Below are positions 2,988-53,602 of a DNA stretch of 64,000 nucleotides, in pieces. The notes beneath the pieces are model-generated. The model saw only the letters and a program-made list of their open reading frames with translations, searched no databases and was not told the origin of the DNA. The stretch's first letter is position 1; each line of letters starts with the position of its first letter. A program made the position numbers and the translations under genes. Source of the DNA: Anaerolineales bacterium (GTDB taxonomy: Bacteria; Chloroflexota; Anaerolineae; Anaerolineales; Villigracilaceae); contig JAHDWC010000001.1 in the NCBI GenBank assembly GCA_023382575.1, positions 5,173 to 69,172 on the forward strand, in the 5' to 3' direction.

Positions 2988-5900
2988 CTATTTTGTCAGC
3001 TGCCGATACAACTCCTCGGTTTCTCTGGATGGAGGCAGATTGAACATCTGCCTCAGCTCATCGCTACATGCTTGATAATAACGGGTGATCGCCGCCCGGT
3101 CTCCCAAGCGATGAGAAACCTGCATCAAAACCCGATAGGCGGCTTCATTCCCAGGGTCGATCTCAAGAATCTTCTGGCAGGCGGCGATTGCCTTCTGGGG
3201 CTGGGCCTGTTTCAAGTACAGCTCCGCAAGGGCTAACAATGCATCCAGGTGAGCTAATCGCAAGCGTTCACGGTCTTGGGTCGTCCAATCGGCATACAAA
3301 TCATTGAGGTAGGGACCGCGCACCAAATTCACAGCTCGTTGGTAATACTCGATCTTCTCTCCGGGTTCCATCGCACTTTTCGCCCGCGAAAGAAAGGACT
3401 CAAACGCCTCGACATCATATTCATAATCCAAGCCACGATTGAACGAGTAATACACATCCTTGAATTGAATCACATCCTGTCCCACAGCGCGGCGCAAGCG
3501 ATAGACCTCATTCTTAAAGCGCAGCTTCAATTTCGATGGCTCATACAACTCTCCCCAAAGCGCCTCTCCAATCTGTTCACGAGTGAGCGGCTTGGTGGAT
3601 GCGAGGAAAAAGAAGAACAATTCCCGCACCGACTGTGTCTGCCATTCCGAAAGACTCAATGTTCTGCCATCGATACTGACCACAGCCTGACCAAACGCCT
3701 GAATGGACAGCCGCGGCATGGGACTTGAAATCACACGCACCTGCCGCCTCAATTGCCGACGGATAGCGGGGATGTTGTTCCCAAAGCGTTCTGCCTGTGA
3801 GAACAGATCGCGGATCGCGCGCCCGATCCCGGAGATGGATTGCAGCCCAGTCAGCCACTCACGCGCCTGATAAACAGCCACCAAGGCCGGATGCATGACC
3901 TTTCCACGCCCCGCAGTAAGTTCACTCAAAACTTGTAACGCCGCTCCAGAATCACCGGACTGAAAATAAACCGCCGCACGCCAGATCCGCGCCACCCAGA
4001 CTTCTGCAACCCGGCCATCTTCGGAAAAATTCTTTTCCGCTTCATCAAAGTACATGGCTGCATCATTTAGATTTCCATCCAACAGGGAAAGCCGACCCTG
4101 CAACAGATCGAGCAAACTTTTCTCGTACTTTGAGTTGCTGGAACGGATCGAGTCTTGCGCTTCTGCAATCGTTTCATTTGCAAGAGTCGAGTTCCTCTGC
4201 AAAAAAGCCAAATGGGCTCGCGCCAAGGCCAGTGAATGGATCAAAAAGCGATTATCCATACCTTGCAGAGCATGCCTGGCCTGCTCGTAATTCTGCTTCG
4301 CCATTTCGAAGTCTTCCAACTCTGCATACAGATCTCCAAACCCAATCGAGATCAACACGTTTAGGCGGGTATCATGAATACGTTGTGCACAAAGCAATCC
4401 TTCCTCATACGCCAGGGCAGATTTTTCATACTCACCCAAAAATTGATAAAACACGCCCAGATTGTTGAGCAGATTTGCCTGCCAATAGAGATTGCCATCC
4501 TGCCGCCAGAATTGTAAGGCTTGTTCATAAGCATTTTGGGCATCTTTGTAATTGCCAGTTGCGCGGTAAACCATCCCCGTATCCAATAATAATAGTGGCA
4601 GATTGGCTTTATCGTACAGGCGACAGAGTTCCAGCGCACGCTCCAATACCGGGACGGCTTGATTGGCTCGCCCAAGGCGATATAAAGCCAGCCCTTTCAG
4701 ACGCAGCGCATCCGCATGCCATAATTGCAGGTCGTCGCTGTCTTTTGTCAGCTTGATGGCTTCCTCCGCATCTCGAAGTGACGCTTCATAGTCCCCGATG
4801 AAGCGCAACGCTGAACCACGCCGAATCAACGTCAGAATCAAACCGGAGGTATCCCCATCCTCTCGGTACATCTTCTCGGCTTGTGCCAGAAATTCCAATC
4901 CTTCCTGCAGATCGCCTTTGGTGTAGGCTATCGTCCCGCGGATGGAAAGCAGCCCGGGCTTGGCACGTAACATGGATGGCGGCAACTCGTTCAGCCAGGA
5001 CTCCATGGTGAGATGCGCGCTTTGCAGCATGGATGTCCCTGCCCGTTCGATCAAACCAGCCAGCGCTTGCGCATCGCTCAACTGCACACAGATCTGATGC
5101 GCCTTGCCCCATTCACCCATCTCTTCATAAGCAAGCTGCAAACGCGAAAGGATCGGCTTGATTTCTCCCGGTCGTTCAATTTGAAAACGCTGGCGGATGA
5201 AATCCAGAAAAAGATGATGGTATCGCAGCCAACGCCCGTCTTCGCCAACAGGCAATGCAAATAAATTGTTCCGCGCGATGAAACGAATCCATTGCGACCA
5301 ATTCTGCTGCTCGGGATAGAACGGAGCCAGCACCGACTCGCACAAGTTCGCATCAAACTCCCCGAGGAGGGAGGTGCGCAAAATAAATTCTCTCAACTCT
5401 GGCGGCTGACGATCCAACACCTGTTGACCCAGATAATCGAACAGACCAGCGCCGTCTTCCAGCACAGAGAAGGAACTCTTGCGCAAAAGCCCAGCCCCGG
5501 AAAATTGCAGCCCTGTGATCCACCCTTCCGACTCTTCGATGAGTCGGCTTGCCTCTTCATCGGAAATATGTTTTCCGCTGTTCTGCAAGACCAATGCTTG
5601 AAGTTCATCCGGGCGGAAGGCAAGGTCTGAAAACCCCAAGCCGCTGACTTGTTCGCGGGCCACCAGCAAGGGCAGGTCATTCAGAATCGCCAACATACGA
5701 GAGGAAATGACCAGGTGACAGTTATCGTCCACAAGTTGGACGAAGCGGTTCACAAAGGCATGGATGGACGAGACCCCTTCAAGCAAATGGAAATCGTCCA
5801 GCACAAAGACAAAATGCTCCTTGACCTGTTCGTACAGTTCGTTCACCAGCGTCACCAGCAGACGTTCCATATCCTGCTCGAACGAAGTCATTCCGTCCAG

Positions 5901-9400: not shown

Positions 9401-10366
9401 CTTATCACCGGCGTGCGTCCCTACACCACCAAAACCGGCAAGCCCATGGGCTTCGCGCAAATGGAAGACATTCAAGGCACGGTCGAGCTGGTGCTCTTCC
9501 CCAAAACCTGGGAAGCCTCACGCGAAAAACTCACCGTCGGGCAGATTGTCATTGTCGAAGGCAAAGTGGACCACGGCAGCACGCCACCCAAATTGCTGGT
9601 CGATACGGTCAAGACCGAAATTCCGGTGACGACGTCGGCGGATGATCCCTTCATCACAGGCGATGAGACTCCCAAGCCCTTGCTTGCTCGCACGCAGGAA
9701 CAAGCTCCGCGCCGACCCGAAGCGCCTCAGACTCCGCCTAAACCTGCCGCACAACCCAAGCAGAATTCAACGTCGAAAGTGACACAGCAGGGCAGCGAGG
9801 TTGTGAATCAAAAAGTTGTCAAAGAAGAAGCACCCGCTTATAACTTCGATGACGATGTTCCCCCGCCGCCCGATAACTTCCCCGACGGCTGGGACAATGA
9901 ATGGCAGCCCTCCTTCGACGAAGCCGCGATTGCCGCGAAGCCTGCGCCGAAGTTCAAAAAAGATGAACCGGTGACTCCTCCGTTGGTGACTCGCGCGGTG
10001 ACAGCGTTGACTCAAGCCGAAGTCTTGAATCCCGCCGAAGACAAGGATGATGCGGTCATCCCGTCGTTATATGTCCCGCTTGCCAAAGAAAACGCGGACA
10101 AGGATCATCCGCCCAAGCAGATCACCGTCACCCTGCGCTCCACCGGTGACAAGGAACGCGACAAACGCCGCATCAAGACCTTGTACGGGACGTTCATCTC
10201 GTATCACGGACGCGACAAGTTCAGTTTTCAGATCTTCGAGAACGGCAAGGGACACCTGATCGACTTCCCCAACGACACCACGCGCATCTGCCCCGAACTG
10301 CTCGAACGCCTGAAGAAGCTGATGGGCGAAGAGACCTGGCGCGTGGAAGAGATCACGTTTCAATAG
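6440..10366 (+). CDS. dnaE: DNA polymerase III subunit alpha with long C-terminal extension
   Basis: This is the replicative polymerase catalytic subunit, 1308 residues against about 1160 in E. coli. The N-terminal PHP domain (1-210) keeps metal ligands such as HLHVHTEYS at residues 5-11 and ITDHGT, so it may be an active 3'-5' nuclease. The catalytic aspartates sit in MPDIDLDF (about 395-402) and VDFLGL (near 556). The palm also has GSAAGSIIAYTLGIT. A helix-hairpin-helix region and an OB-fold (about 970-1050) follow. After residue 1080 comes a Pro/Lys-rich disordered linker and a terminal folded block of about 80 residues with a TLYGTFISYHGRDKF strand pattern, an extension not found in E. 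coli. The start has no ribosome-binding site. Confidence 0.97.
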   Translation: MSFAHLHVHTEYSMLDGFSNIKKLVKRVKEMNMDSVAITDHGTMFGVIDFYKAAKAEGVKPIIGLEAYMAARGMKDKDSKLDRSSFHLLLLAENDTGYRNLLKIASAAQLDGFYYYPRIDHDFLAAHSEGLICTSGCMSAEIPRALLQEKPEEAVRKWNWYYDVFGPDRFFVELQQHNIPEILDLNRKLLELGARYSARYIATNDVHYVNQADAKLQDVLLAIQTNSTLADPDRMRMTDDSYFLRSPLEMSKLFSEVPDAISNTLLIAERCNVDLGFKGYHLPEFPVPEGHTAESYLRSLCEAGAEIRYGDDCDSQRVRERLNYELSVVNSMGFNAYFLIVWDLCSFAREHGIWYNARGSAAGSIIAYTLGITMVDPLEHALIFERFLNPGRISMPDIDLDFRDDRRHEMLEYCARKYGDDKVAQIITFGTMGTKAAIRDVARVMEIPLPEVDKVAKLVPFSAGGTTVAEAKEVKEFKQIYDTDPKMREVIDIAERMEGTVRNAGTHAAGVVISDKPIIEYLPLHRPTSNSEDTPIKSVTQFEMGILDSLGMLKVDFLGLITLTVMARACDLIYKRHGIKFDLTNIPIDDPKSFELMGAGQTAGVFQVEGGGMTRWLVQMKPQNLDNIIAMVALYRPGPMAFIPDYIARMHGEAEVEYRHPAMEPIFKDTFGIPVYQEQLMRAAVELAGYTPSESDELRKAISKKKKEDIEKHRNKFVKGAVEKGMEQSTAEAIYADWEEFARYGFNKSHAADYGVIAVQTAYLKSHYPAEYMTALMSASASQTEKVAFYVADARSMGVPVLQPDINSSMWDFDIEDVDGKPNIRFGMGAIKNVGENSVQPIIDERAANGKFTDLNDFARRVDLRAVGKRSLESLIKVGAMDSFGNRASLLASLDRIVAISSNHFRAADAGQMSLFGASTGIVEEITLPEVKDVDKREMLNWERELIGLYISDHPLNEYQATLAKIVSYFSGQLGESSHEEKVRMAGLITGVRPYTTKTGKPMGFAQMEDIQGTVELVLFPKTWEASREKLTVGQIVIVEGKVDHGSTPPKLLVDTVKTEIPVTTSADDPFITGDETPKPLLARTQEQAPRRPEAPQTPPKPAAQPKQNSTSKVTQQGSEVVNQKVVKEEAPAYNFDDDVPPPPDNFPDGWDNEWQPSFDEAAIAAKPAPKFKKDEPVTPPLVTRAVTALTQAEVLNPAEDKDDAVIPSLYVPLAKENADKDHPPKQITVTLRSTGDKERDKRRIKTLYGTFISYHGRDKFSFQIFENGKGHLIDFPNDTTRICPELLERLKKLMGEETWRVEEITFQ

Positions 10367-27072: not shown

Positions 27073-27088
27073 CGTTTCACGTGAAACA
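27073..27088. other. parS-like site 1
   Basis: CGTTTCACGTGAAACA matches 15 of 16 positions of the ParB-binding site TGTTTCACGTGAAACA. It lies in the 36-bp gap between the slipin and SdpI-like genes. A palindrome this specific is unlikely to occur twice by chance within 720 bp. Confidence 0.75.
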
Positions 27089-27759: not shown

Positions 27760-27794
27760 ACAAAAGTGCGTGTCTCACCGGCACGCACTTTTGT
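27760..27794 (+). terminator. Hairpin terminator-like structure overlapping the second parS-like site
   Basis: A 13-bp stem (ACAAAAGTGCGTG with CACGCACTTTTGT) and a 9-nt loop lie directly after the SdpI-like gene. The run of Ts is short, and the parS-like site starts within its right arm. It may partly end transcription before the DUF4177 gene. Confidence 0.6.
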
Positions 27795-27807
27795 TTCACG
27801 TGAAACA
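27792..27807. other. parS-like site 2 (perfect)
   Basis: TGTTTCACGTGAAACA is an exact match to the classic bacterial parS consensus. It sits just upstream of the ribosome-binding site of the DUF4177 gene. ParB should nucleate here if the chromosome uses the ParABS system. Confidence 0.85.
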
Positions 27808-31498: not shown

Positions 31499-32632
31499 TT
31501 ATCCCAAATGCATCGGCATGATGACATGCAGGAAGTTATCGTCGCCCACCGGCTTGACCACACCGGGCGCATTGGGAGCAGTCGTCTCCAGCGCCACATT
31601 TGGCGTACGAATGACTTCCAACGCCTCACGCAGGAACTTGACGTTGAACGCGATCAACACGCCGCTGCCGTCCACTGTCGCTTCGACGATGGTTTCGTTC
31701 TTGCCGGTCTCTTCCGAGGTCGCGGAAATTTCCACCTCACTTGGCTGCATCTCGCCATTGGATTGTTTAATGTCCAAACGCGCCACGTTCGAGCCTTCGC
31801 GTGCAAATATCTCTGCCTGTTTACAGGCCTTGAGCAGTGCCGCCGTCGAAACCAACGTGCGTGACTTGTAATTGCGCGGAATGATCTGGTGATAATCGGG
31901 GAAGGTCCCTTCGATCAACTGTGAGACGACTTCCACATCCTTCACGCGGAAGAGGACTTGTCCGCGCTGCTTGGGCACAACCATGTAGATGGGTTCTTCC
32001 GGATCATGTGCGACGCGTGCCAGCTCATTCAACGCGCGCGCCGGGATGATGATGTTAATCGGCTGGGGCACTGCCTGCGATAACTGTGCTTTCCGCACAG
32101 AGAGACGGAAGCCATCCGCCGCCGCCATCGTGACCTTATCCTTCTCAACATTCATCAACACGCCCATCAACACTGGGCGGGCTTCATCGGTCGAAGCGGC
32201 GAACGCTACTTGCTGGATCATCTCTTTGAAGTCAGCCACATTCAACTGGACAGCACCCTGCATCTCCGGAGTCGGAAGCGGGGGAAATTCCTGAGCGTCG
32301 ATGCACTTAATGTCATTATTCGATGAACCACTTTGCAGATGCAAACTTTGCGTCTTCGTATCGAGCATGAGTTGAACTTGATCGCCCGGCAGGGTATTCA
32401 CCAAATCTGAAAACGTCCGCGAAGGGACAGTTGTTGACCCGTTCTCATCGATGCGCGCAGGAATCCAACAGGTGATTCCCAACTCAAGATTCGTGGCGGA
32501 AAGACGCAGGCGTCCTTCGTCGGTTGCGATCAGAATATTCGATAAAACAGGCAAAGTACTGCGCGGCGATACAGCGCGCGAAACAATACTCAAACCGCGG
32601 GCAAGGTTCTCTTGAAGGACTGTTACTTTCAT
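31499..32632 (-). CDS. dnaN: DNA polymerase III subunit beta (sliding clamp)
   Basis: The 377-residue protein is a complete clamp of three similar domains (about 1-120, 125-250 and 255-377). It begins MKVTVLQENLARGLSIVSRAV, continues with ADGFRLSVRKAQL in domain 2 and ends with FLHVIMPMHLG, the canonical clamp terminus. The clamp ties DnaE to DNA and should work with the DnaE encoded 25 kb away. It is not next to dnaA or recF, unlike the textbook order. A ribosome-binding site (GAGGCGATG) precedes the start. It lies about 20 kb from the candidate origin and is transcribed away from it. Confidence 0.98.
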   Translation of the reverse strand: MKVTVLQENLARGLSIVSRAVSPRSTLPVLSNILIATDEGRLRLSATNLELGITCWIPARIDENGSTTVPSRTFSDLVNTLPGDQVQLMLDTKTQSLHLQSGSSNNDIKCIDAQEFPPLPTPEMQGAVQLNVADFKEMIQQVAFAASTDEARPVLMGVLMNVEKDKVTMAAADGFRLSVRKAQLSQAVPQPINIIIPARALNELARVAHDPEEPIYMVVPKQRGQVLFRVKDVEVVSQLIEGTFPDYHQIIPRNYKSRTLVSTAALLKACKQAEIFAREGSNVARLDIKQSNGEMQPSEVEISATSEETGKNETIVEATVDGSGVLIAFNVKFLREALEVIRTPNVALETTAPNAPGVVKPVGDDNFLHVIMPMHLG

Positions 32633-51584: not shown

Positions 51585-51860
51585 TTACGGGGCAGGAGGA
51601 TTCCGCGGTTCGACCACCAACTTGATGGCAGTGCGAACCTTATCCTCGATCTCTACATCCACAAACTCTGGGACACAGACCACATCGATCCCATCGTTCT
51701 TGAGATAACTGGATGCAAGCACCAGCGCCTTCACAGCTTGATTCACTGCTCCGGCTCCAATCGCTTGCACCTCTGCCCGTTTGTGTTCACGGATGACCCC
51801 CGCGATCGCCCCGGCGACTGCAGAGGTACGGGAGTTGGCTGAAACTTTGATCATATCCAT
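51585..51860 (-). CDS. spoVS: Stage V sporulation protein S homologue
   Basis: The 91-residue protein reads MIKVSANSRTSAVAGAIAG, then VQAIGAGAVNQAVKALVLASSYL, then VVCVPEFVDVEIEDKVRTAIKLVVEP. This is the full SpoVS sequence pattern (86 residues in Bacillus) with a short Pro-rich tail. SpoVS is an Alba-like, probably nucleic-acid-binding protein that affects sporulation and division in Bacillus, and it is kept in non-sporulating phyla. ATG 51860 has a GGGAGG ribosome-binding site 6 nt upstream. Its gene abuts the candidate origin, and its promoter lies within it. Confidence 0.95.
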   Translation of the reverse strand: MDMIKVSANSRTSAVAGAIAGVIREHKRAEVQAIGAGAVNQAVKALVLASSYLKNDGIDVVCVPEFVDVEIEDKVRTAIKLVVEPRNPPAP

Positions 51861-51906
51861 GGCAACCTCCCAAGGTTGGCAAAGTGGGGACAAACTCTCT
51901 TTGTGG

Positions 51907-51935
51907 ATTGTACAGGATTTAAAGATTGGATTCAA
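51907..51935 (-). promoter_or_regulatory. Promoter of spoVS
   Basis: On the minus strand TTGAAT (51935-51930) and TACAAT (51912-51907) are 17 bp apart. The start codon lies 46 nt downstream of the -10 box. Confidence 0.55.
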
Positions 51936-52008
51936 GCAGTATATAAGTATGATTATGGATTCGTAATAATAGTAGGGGCTGTGGATAATGTGGATAACCT
52001 CAATCACC

Positions 52009-52348
52009 CCCCACATATGGGGCGATGTTCGCGCTTCGCACCAAACCTTAGGTTGAGTGCTGATTCCAAGATTCAGCCTCACTGTGGGTTGTGACTGGAT
52101 AACTTATCCACACCAAAATGTAGATGCAAAAAGTACTTTTTATGATTCTTCCATATCTCGGTAGACCGAAAAACTACCCCCCAGATATGGGGGGAGGGTG
52201 TTATTAATTTGTCTGACATGTTTTCTCAGAAAACTGCCCGTTGTCCACAGGGTAGAGGAGTTTTCCACAGTTTAGGGGCACTTATCCACAGATTTGGGTA
52301 TTGTGGAGAGATATGTTGTCTGAACAAATACCCCAAAATATGGGGTAT
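52009..52348. repeat. Three CCCC-N-ATAT-GGGG palindromes in the origin region
   Basis: CCCCACATATGGGG lies at 52009-52022, CCCCCCAGATATGGGGGG at 52177-52194, and ATACCCCAAAATATGGGGTAT at 52328-52348. They share a CCCC(N)2-3-ATAT-GGGG core and are spaced about 165 and 155 bp apart. This is the range of the entry for the set, not one continuous repeat. The last may also serve as the pyrC terminator. Confidence 0.7.
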
Positions 52349-52380
52349 TGATGCGAGATTTCGGATAGCAATACAGTGAA

Positions 52381-53445
52381 TTACCCACGCACGTTCCTGC
52401 CATAGCCTTTTTCGACGAGAATCTTCCCATCTTCAAAGGCGGTCTTCCCGCGCAGAACAACCTTGCGAACTTTTCCTCTGCCCTTCCAACCTTCAAAGGG
52501 AGTCCAGCCGCAGCGTGTAAATTGCTCACTGGCTTTGATCTCATACATCGCGGATTCGTCCACTTCCACCCAGGTGTCTGGCTGTTCGGGCAAATTGAAG
52601 ATGCGTTTGGGGTTGGTGTGAAGCCTTTGCACTACATCGTCGAGGGTCAATCGTCCATCGTCTACTGCTTTTAACAGTAATGGCAGCATTGTTTCCAAAC
52701 CGGGGAAGCCGGGCGGTGGATTGTCGCTGTCTTTTTCTTCCAAGGTGTGTGGGGCGTGGTCGGTGGCGAAACAATCAACCACCTCCAGATTTGTCCACAG
52801 GCTATCCACATCTGCTTGTGTGGCGAGTCGGGGTCTCACTTCGCCTCTGCCGGGATGTCCGTGTGAAATGGCGGGGATGTCATCTTTACTCAAAAATAGA
52901 TGATGCGGGCAAACTTCACAGGTCACTTTGATGCCCTTTTCCTTGGCGGCTTTGATGAGCAGGATCTCTTCTTTCAACGAAACATGCGCAATGTGAACGG
53001 GATGATCGTACACGGCGGAGAATAAAATCGCCGCCGCCATCGTGCGGCTTTCAGAATGCATCACCATCGGCGCAGATTTGGGAAACGCTTGGAAGTGCGG
53101 AGTCCACAGCGTCATGTCATCGAGGCGCAGTTCTCCAAAGGTGGAGTCAAGGTACATTTTGAGTCCGGCCGCTTGCGGGGCGAGCGAAGCGACGATGTCG
53201 GCATTGTCGGGTCCCGCACCGACGAATTGGGCATAGTCACAGCGCGCTTTGGTTTTTGCCGCATCCAACGCGAGGGTGAGTGTGGCTTCATCGAAGATGG
53301 GCGGTTTGGTGTTGGGCATCGCGAGGAGGGTCGTCACGCCGCCAGCGAGAGCCGCCTGAGTGACAGTATCCCAATCCTCTTTATGGGTGGCGCCGGGTTC
53401 GCGCACATGGACATGTGGGTCGATCAAGCCGGGAAGTTTGAGCAT
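52381..53445 (-). CDS. pyrC: Dihydroorotase
   Basis: The 354-residue metal enzyme makes dihydroorotate from carbamoyl aspartate. The first metal motif is LIDPHVHVREPG (residues 6-17), with AGGVTTLLAMPNTKPP next. Metal ligand histidines occur in YDHPVHIAHVS and CEVCPHHLF, and the catalytic Asp is in CFATDHAPHTLEEKD. PPPGFPGLETMLPLLL matches the CAD-like class rather than E. coli PyrC. ATG 53445 is chosen since a TATACT box ends 6 nt before it and the conserved domain starts at once. It stands on the left bank of the pyr-gene set, and the candidate origin lies just downstream of it. Confidence 0.95.
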   Translation of the reverse strand: MLKLPGLIDPHVHVREPGATHKEDWDTVTQAALAGGVTTLLAMPNTKPPIFDEATLTLALDAAKTKARCDYAQFVGAGPDNADIVASLAPQAAGLKMYLDSTFGELRLDDMTLWTPHFQAFPKSAPMVMHSESRTMAAAILFSAVYDHPVHIAHVSLKEEILLIKAAKEKGIKVTCEVCPHHLFLSKDDIPAISHGHPGRGEVRPRLATQADVDSLWTNLEVVDCFATDHAPHTLEEKDSDNPPPGFPGLETMLPLLLKAVDDGRLTLDDVVQRLHTNPKRIFNLPEQPDTWVEVDESAMYEIKASEQFTRCGWTPFEGWKGRGKVRKVVLRGKTAFEDGKILVEKGYGRNVRG

Positions 53446-53451
53446 GGGGCG

Positions 53452-53480
53452 AGTATACCCGCACGGGCAGGTTAAGTGAA
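53452..53480 (-). promoter_or_regulatory. Promoter of pyrC, leaderless layout
   Basis: On the minus strand TTCACT (53480-53475) and TATACT (53457-53452) are 17 bp apart. The -10 box ends 6 nt before ATG 53445. Confidence 0.5.
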
Positions 53481-53602
53481 ACCTAAGAGGCGGTGAACTC
53501 ATTTACAGAGTGCAGTAAGATGTTTGTGAATTCCTCGGCAGACATCGTAACCGCATGCCGAGTTGATTGTTTAAGTACATAATCATTCCCGGAGGAAGAG
53601 AC

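Follow-up and report, generated by a model that had tools for sequence, protein, structure and literature searches.

A candidate chromosomal replication origin beside spoVS in an Anaerolineales bacterium, its conservation and relocation within the family, and a palindrome common to origin and dnaA upstream region

Probable origin of replication between spoVS and a pyrC-like gene

The 520-base intergenic gap at positions 51861-52380 of the window is very probably the chromosomal origin of replication (oriC) of this uncultured Anaerolineales bacterium; we put the probability at about 95%. The window is the whole analysed stretch of 64 kb (C1:5173-69172) from a genome of 4.37 Mb in 346 contigs. 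An earlier note, made from the sequence alone, had proposed the gap as a candidate oriC, and this reading is supported by a complete unwinding module, by conservation throughout the family, by relocation of the cluster as a unit, by the skew of relatives and by the nearby parS-like sites and dnaN. Sequence, conservation and position of the region are reported below as observed.

The gap is free of genes, as had been claimed, and is bounded by the start of spoVS (51860, minus strand) and the stop of a dihydroorotase-like gene (52381, minus strand). The DnaA boxes counted in the earlier note were all recovered, namely four perfect copies of TTATCCACA at 51980 (-), 51989 (-), 52104 (+) and 52282 (+), and two near-perfect ones with one mismatch each, TTGTCCACA at 52241 (+) and TTTTCCACA at 52261 (+). 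The pair at 51980/51989 is indeed directly adjacent (0 bp gap). These six boxes (at most one mismatch) lie inside 320 bp, against a maximum of two in the rest of the 64-kb window, and none of 60 simulated 64-kb sequences (first-order Markov) had more than two. The cluster is denser than expected by chance. Coordinates of all features are collected in Table 1.

Table 1. Features of the candidate oriC and associated loci (window positions unless a locus is named).
Feature	Position	Strand	Basis
parS-like site, one mismatch	27073..27088	.	match to TGTTTCACGTGAAACA
parS-like site, perfect	27792..27807	.	match to TGTTTCACGTGAAACA
dnaN	31499..32632	-	TIGR00663 E 1e-90
spoVS, flanks candidate oriC	51585..51860	-	Pfam SpoVS E 2e-35
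sigma-70-type spoVS promoter: -35 TTGAAT (51930-51935), 17 bp, -10 TACAAT (51907-51912)	51907..51935	-	sequence
AT-rich DNA unwinding element (DUE) adjoining DnaA-trios	51930..51963	.	AT content
Four DnaA-trios CTA CTA TTA TTA (complement 3'-GAT GAT AAT AAT-5')	51964..51975	-	motif definition PMC8287927
GC-rich spacer GCCC, separating DnaA boxes from trios	51976..51979	-	sequence
Tandem pair of perfect DnaA boxes, oriented toward trios	51980..51997 (51980-51988, 51989-51997)	-	sequence
Palindrome copy 1, CCCCACATATGGGG	52009..52022	.	motif search
Central perfect DnaA box	52104..52112	+	sequence
Palindrome copy 2, CCCCAGATATGGGG, at conserved, helically phased distance to three-box array	52179..52192	.	
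Three-box array TTGTCCACA-11-TTTTCCACA-12-TTATCCACA	52241..52290	+	sequence
Conserved inverted repeat TTGTCTGAACAA (TTGTTTAGACAA-like), pyrC side of candidate oriC	52316..52327	.	alignment of origins
Palindrome copy 3, CCCCAAAATATGGGG	52331..52345	.	alignment and motif search
Dihydroorotase-like (pyrC) gene, flanks candidate oriC	52381..53502	-	TIGR00857 E 9e-76 (under curated cut-off); Pfam Amidohydro_1
dnaA of the window organism	L005:7884-9233		

Unwinding module

On the spoVS side the minus strand reads TTATCCACA-TTATCCACA-GCCC-CTACTATTATTA-CGAATCC and continues into AT-rich DNA. As defined in the literature (PMC8287927), a basal unwinding system (BUS) has tandem boxes separated by no more than 3 bp, a spacer of up to 16 bp and at least three DnaA-trios; at 51964-51997 the box gap measures 0 bp, the spacer 4 bp, and four trios are present. 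The AT-rich stretch formerly noticed beside the boxes is real, with 74% AT at 51930-51975 compared to 57% for the entire gap. A strict search covering 2.06 Mb (the window and three relatives, sampled as 100 stretches of 20 kb) returned two loci, the window site and its counterpart in the relative G063, in a test that misses many relatives with more degenerate trios or boxes. A relaxed test was passed by 40 of 99 arrays, and a tight pattern demanding CCTACTA after the boxes, too strict for a census, occurred in 18 of 120 genomes.

The identity of this module with the BUS of Bacillus subtilis suggests how the region may work. DnaA would bind the three-box array (52241-52290), the central box and the tandem pair (51980-51997), and an ATP-DnaA filament would grow from the tandem pair, pass the spacer and reach the four DnaA-trios (51964-51975). 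The AT-rich DNA between the trios and the spoVS promoter would melt, and helicases would be loaded there. We propose a second layer, in which a regulator would occupy the palindrome CCCCATATATGGGG, whose copies in oriC are in helical register with the DnaA boxes, as well as a site upstream of dnaA; such a shared regulator would couple origin activity to initiator supply.

Conservation and relocation across relatives

Of 120 family genomes, 101 contain the three-box array, essentially always in a single copy; a reversed-pattern control gave zero matches. Many, not all, of the 19 genomes from which the exact array is absent are incomplete. The array is rarer in the rest of the class (26 of 199 genomes, family members counted in).

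The surroundings of the pyrC-like gene were compared in 80 named Anaerolineales loci. In 33 of them spoVS adjoins, and the gap between both genes holds 5-10 DnaA boxes in every case (33/33); none of the 47 pyrC loci without a spoVS neighbour has a dense box cluster, the maximum being three boxes per 600 bp. A cluster travelling with the pyrC-like gene was rejected on these grounds. That the origin should be flanked by spoVS and pyrC instead of dnaA-dnaN is right for the lineage of the window. Family-wide, the commonest neighbour of the cluster is spoVS, and the pyrC-like neighbour belongs to the window's genus and its close relatives.

Genus g5 has this cluster at a distance of 2.7 kb from dnaN. 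Three of the four g5 clusters pass the relaxed test for the unwinding module, and spoVS is found elsewhere with at most two boxes nearby. The cluster also sits away from spoVS in G016, G060 and G068. Its relocation as a unit in genus g5 argues for an autonomous unit and against a promoter element of spoVS. We therefore regard it as very improbable that the boxes merely belong to a DnaA-regulated spoVS promoter region. Such a region would account for the sigma-70-type promoter TTGAAT-17-TACAAT, which abuts the DUE and is conserved in an alignment of 34 origins, and for the position of the cluster upstream of spoVS in most relatives. It would not account for the clusters away from spoVS in the lineages above, whose examined spoVS loci have no more than two boxes, nor for trios and AT-rich DNA, which a promoter does not need, nor for the skew of relatives, which switches at or near the locus.

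Several loci of other Anaerolineae families have a similar array beside dnaA, mostly just past the dnaA 3' end, which suggests that linkage of dnaA and origin is probably ancestral. The best explanation is that in the window's family dnaA has left the origin, and that oriC remains near dnaN and usually adjoins spoVS. One dnaA-linked cluster from another Anaerolineae family (G274, contig C81; L306, L330) comprises 19 DnaA boxes within 600 bp.

Skew, parS and the position of dnaA

The GC skew of the window is mostly negative before and positive after a switch near 48-52 kb, with a cumulative minimum at about 47-49 kb. Because the window genome is a 346-contig assembly, skew was further measured on three single-contig relatives, from sampled 20-kb stretches that amount to about 10-20% of each genome. 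Codon-3 GC skew was corrected for gene strand, and both origin and terminus were left free in the fit. Compared to the best-fit origin, the spoVS cluster is worse by 0.9 (G063), 2.6 (G008) and 0.7 (G058) log-likelihood units, dnaA by 8.6 (G008) and 9.8 (G058), and a second DnaA-box cluster, described below, by 11.1 (G063) and 19.9 (G008). The skew is weak in absolute size, and the optimum in G008 is broad, with the best-fitting origin at 0.9-1.3 Mb. The relatives' skew places the origin at or near the spoVS cluster and disfavours both dnaA and the second cluster.

Only two parS-like sites (at most two mismatches to TGTTTCACGTGAAACA) occur in the whole genome. Both are in the window, 24-25 kb from the cluster, in agreement with the 25 kb given in the earlier note, and dnaN, formerly placed about 20 kb away, lies 19 kb from the candidate oriC. 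The strand bias of flanking genes, likewise invoked as support, turned out weak and was given no weight.

An oriC adjoining dnaA is common in bacteria and not required. The candidate oriC and dnaA are located at 505 and 3068 kb in G008, at 556 and 1486 kb in G063, and at 3905 and 552 kb in G058, respectively; the candidate is not next to dnaA, which is at least 0.6 Mb away in the relatives. The dnaA contig of the window organism has no DnaA-box cluster, and with the skew of relatives this led us to reject dnaA as the origin locus.

A second DnaA-box cluster

A better box cluster elsewhere, which would speak against the proposal, exists as far as box number is concerned. Five perfect boxes together with TTTTCCACA and TTATCAACA are arranged in one direction within 256 bp at C2:77685-77940 (L004:7685-7940), in and after an RmlD-like sugar-nucleotide gene and hence partly in coding sequence. 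With six to seven boxes this C2 cluster surpasses the spoVS cluster in density, but it lacks an unwinding module and is disfavoured by skew, and was rejected as origin for these two reasons. An alignment of six genomes of the genus shows most of its boxes unchanged and the spacers diverged. In two relatives a C2-type cluster lies 237-355 kb from oriC.

Density and conservation of the C2 boxes in the six genomes would be expected if 51861-52380 served to titrate DnaA and replication in fact started elsewhere, either at C2 or beside dnaA. We give this alternative hardly any credence: the C2-type clusters of single-contig relatives are without unwinding module, C2 overlaps and follows a sugar-nucleotide gene, its pattern turned up in no more than six genomes, all from a single genus, the skew disfavours C2 by 11 and 20 and dnaA by 9-10 log units, and the dnaA contig of the window organism is devoid of a box cluster. 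The oriC reading of the spoVS cluster is retained.

A palindrome at oriC and upstream of dnaA

Sites similar to the palindrome CCCCATATATGGGG are present in three copies in the candidate oriC (52009, 52179, 52331). A palindrome between the three-box array and the tandem pair is found in 69 of 78 distinct relatives' origins, and its distance to the array is nearly always 60-62, 50-51 or 40 bp (78 distinct origins). These distances are whole helical turns apart, and each value is represented in at least two genera, an argument for a bound protein that has to face the DnaA complex.

The window genome has a single palindrome upstream of dnaA, ACCCATATATGGGGG (L005:9585-9598; C113:9585), followed by TATAAT. 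With at most two mismatches allowed, 26 of the 34 dnaA loci have the palindrome in the upstream region, mostly about 770-840 bp ahead of the Walker A codon, its core nearly invariant and its flanks diverged; by our estimate about 0.001 per locus would be expected by chance. In G058 and G041 the sole perfect palindrome is the one upstream of dnaA, and the oriC copies have one mismatch. A second conserved element, TGGCTGAAAC-N4-GTTCTA, follows about 40 bp past the palindrome in the dnaA upstream region (L005 ~9530-9560; L236-L265) and forms a GAAAC/GTTC inverted repeat that is somewhat SOS-box-like.

Further palindrome sites exist, several of them within repeated intergenic elements. Other sites seen in G008 (L052, L340, L342) are located between convergent genes or inside a gene, which does not suggest a larger regulon. 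Repeated intergenic elements at L216, L217 and L218 (C44, C107, C162) contain two palindromes at a distance of 112-145 bp, with repeats of the CAACAGATGTC type in the intervening DNA, and similar pairs occur in the relatives G063 and G112. Possibly they are small mobile elements that could titrate the palindrome binder. A variant palindrome, CCCCACATGTGGGG, is found just after a MalT-like LuxR-type regulator gene (L221 ~2957, L339 ~3302), at the same place in two genera, and may be this regulator's own site.

We interpret the palindrome CCCCATATATGGGG as the likely site through which an undescribed regulator would act on both oriC and dnaA. For this element alone, the copies at oriC and dnaA could also be relics of a former adjacency of both loci, in keeping with the arrays beside dnaA in other Anaerolineae families and a probably ancestral linkage. 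We consider a relic origin unlikely. It is at odds with a palindrome core that stayed nearly invariant while the flanks diverged and with distances to the boxes that shift by whole helical turns; moreover, near the arrays beside dnaA in other families no palindrome (at most two mismatches) is present except for one weak match (L319).

Sites of a living regulator are our preferred reading of the palindrome, and its context hints at the kind of protein. A GAF-GAF-HisKA_3 sensor kinase gene is situated directly upstream of dnaA (L005:9721-11406) and is kept in 28 of 30 dnaA loci of the family. The usual partners of HisKA_3 kinases are regulators of the NarL family, and the NarL-type 7-2-7 operator consists of inverted heptamers TACYYMT, 2 bp apart. 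Read in one orientation, the palindrome copy at dnaA is CCCCCAT-AT-ATGGGTA, of which one half fits this heptamer and the other only partly. The regulator of oriC and dnaA might hypothetically be a NarL-type response regulator. SpoVS was considered as the palindrome binder as well, and no supporting evidence was found. Our full proposal, which we advance tentatively and at somewhat less than even odds, is that a dedicated undescribed regulator, possibly of NarL/FixJ type and paired with the dnaA-linked GAF-GAF-HisKA_3 kinase, recognises CCCCATATATGGGG both upstream of dnaA and at oriC, where it would sit on one fixed face of the helix with respect to the DnaA boxes, such that one signal would control initiator supply and origin firing family-wide.

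Comparison with known systems

Our literature search found no description of an Anaerolineae replication origin and no publication containing CCCATATATGGG; searches on the palindrome and on spoVS in connection with origins yielded nothing relevant. Location and family-wide history of the origin are new to the searched literature, the kind of thing is already known, and novelty is greatest for the shared palindrome. The results provide a base-level map of an Anaerolineae origin conserved across its family, and trace natural moves of the origin (beside dnaA, dnaN, spoVS) that left much of its internal layout intact. They also offer the landmark required for reading replication rates of these uncultured bacteria from metagenomes and, in the palindrome found both at oriC, in helical-turn spacing to the DnaA boxes, and ahead of dnaA, a specific clue to a hitherto unknown control of initiation.

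The candidate oriC shares with the Bacillus subtilis BUS (PMC8287927, PMC6669920) the tandem DnaA boxes, the short GC-rich spacer, the DnaA-trios beginning with GAT and the AT-rich DNA. It differs in not lying beside dnaA, in adjoining the spoVS promoter and in its interspersed palindromes. A gene context other than dnaA-dnaN is known from the oriC of E. coli and other dnaA-unlinked origins (PMC4285127); unlike E. coli oriC, the candidate has spoVS and a pyrC-like gene as neighbours, and the similar array beside dnaA in related families allows the origin move to be placed on the tree.

Binding sites inside oriC, as proposed here for the putative regulator of the palindrome, are known for CtrA, MtrA, HP1021 and Spo0A (PMC4285127), and MtrA sites are reported at the dnaA promoter too (PMC2945938). 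Among the motifs compared from PMC4285127, none resembles CCCCATATATGGGG. The C2 cluster, finally, looks like a putative titration locus of the datA type. It is comparable to datA/DARS of E. coli (PMC12371093) in being a dense set of DnaA boxes that is conserved within a genus at some distance from oriC, and differs from them in that its boxes all point in the same direction and partly lie inside a coding region.
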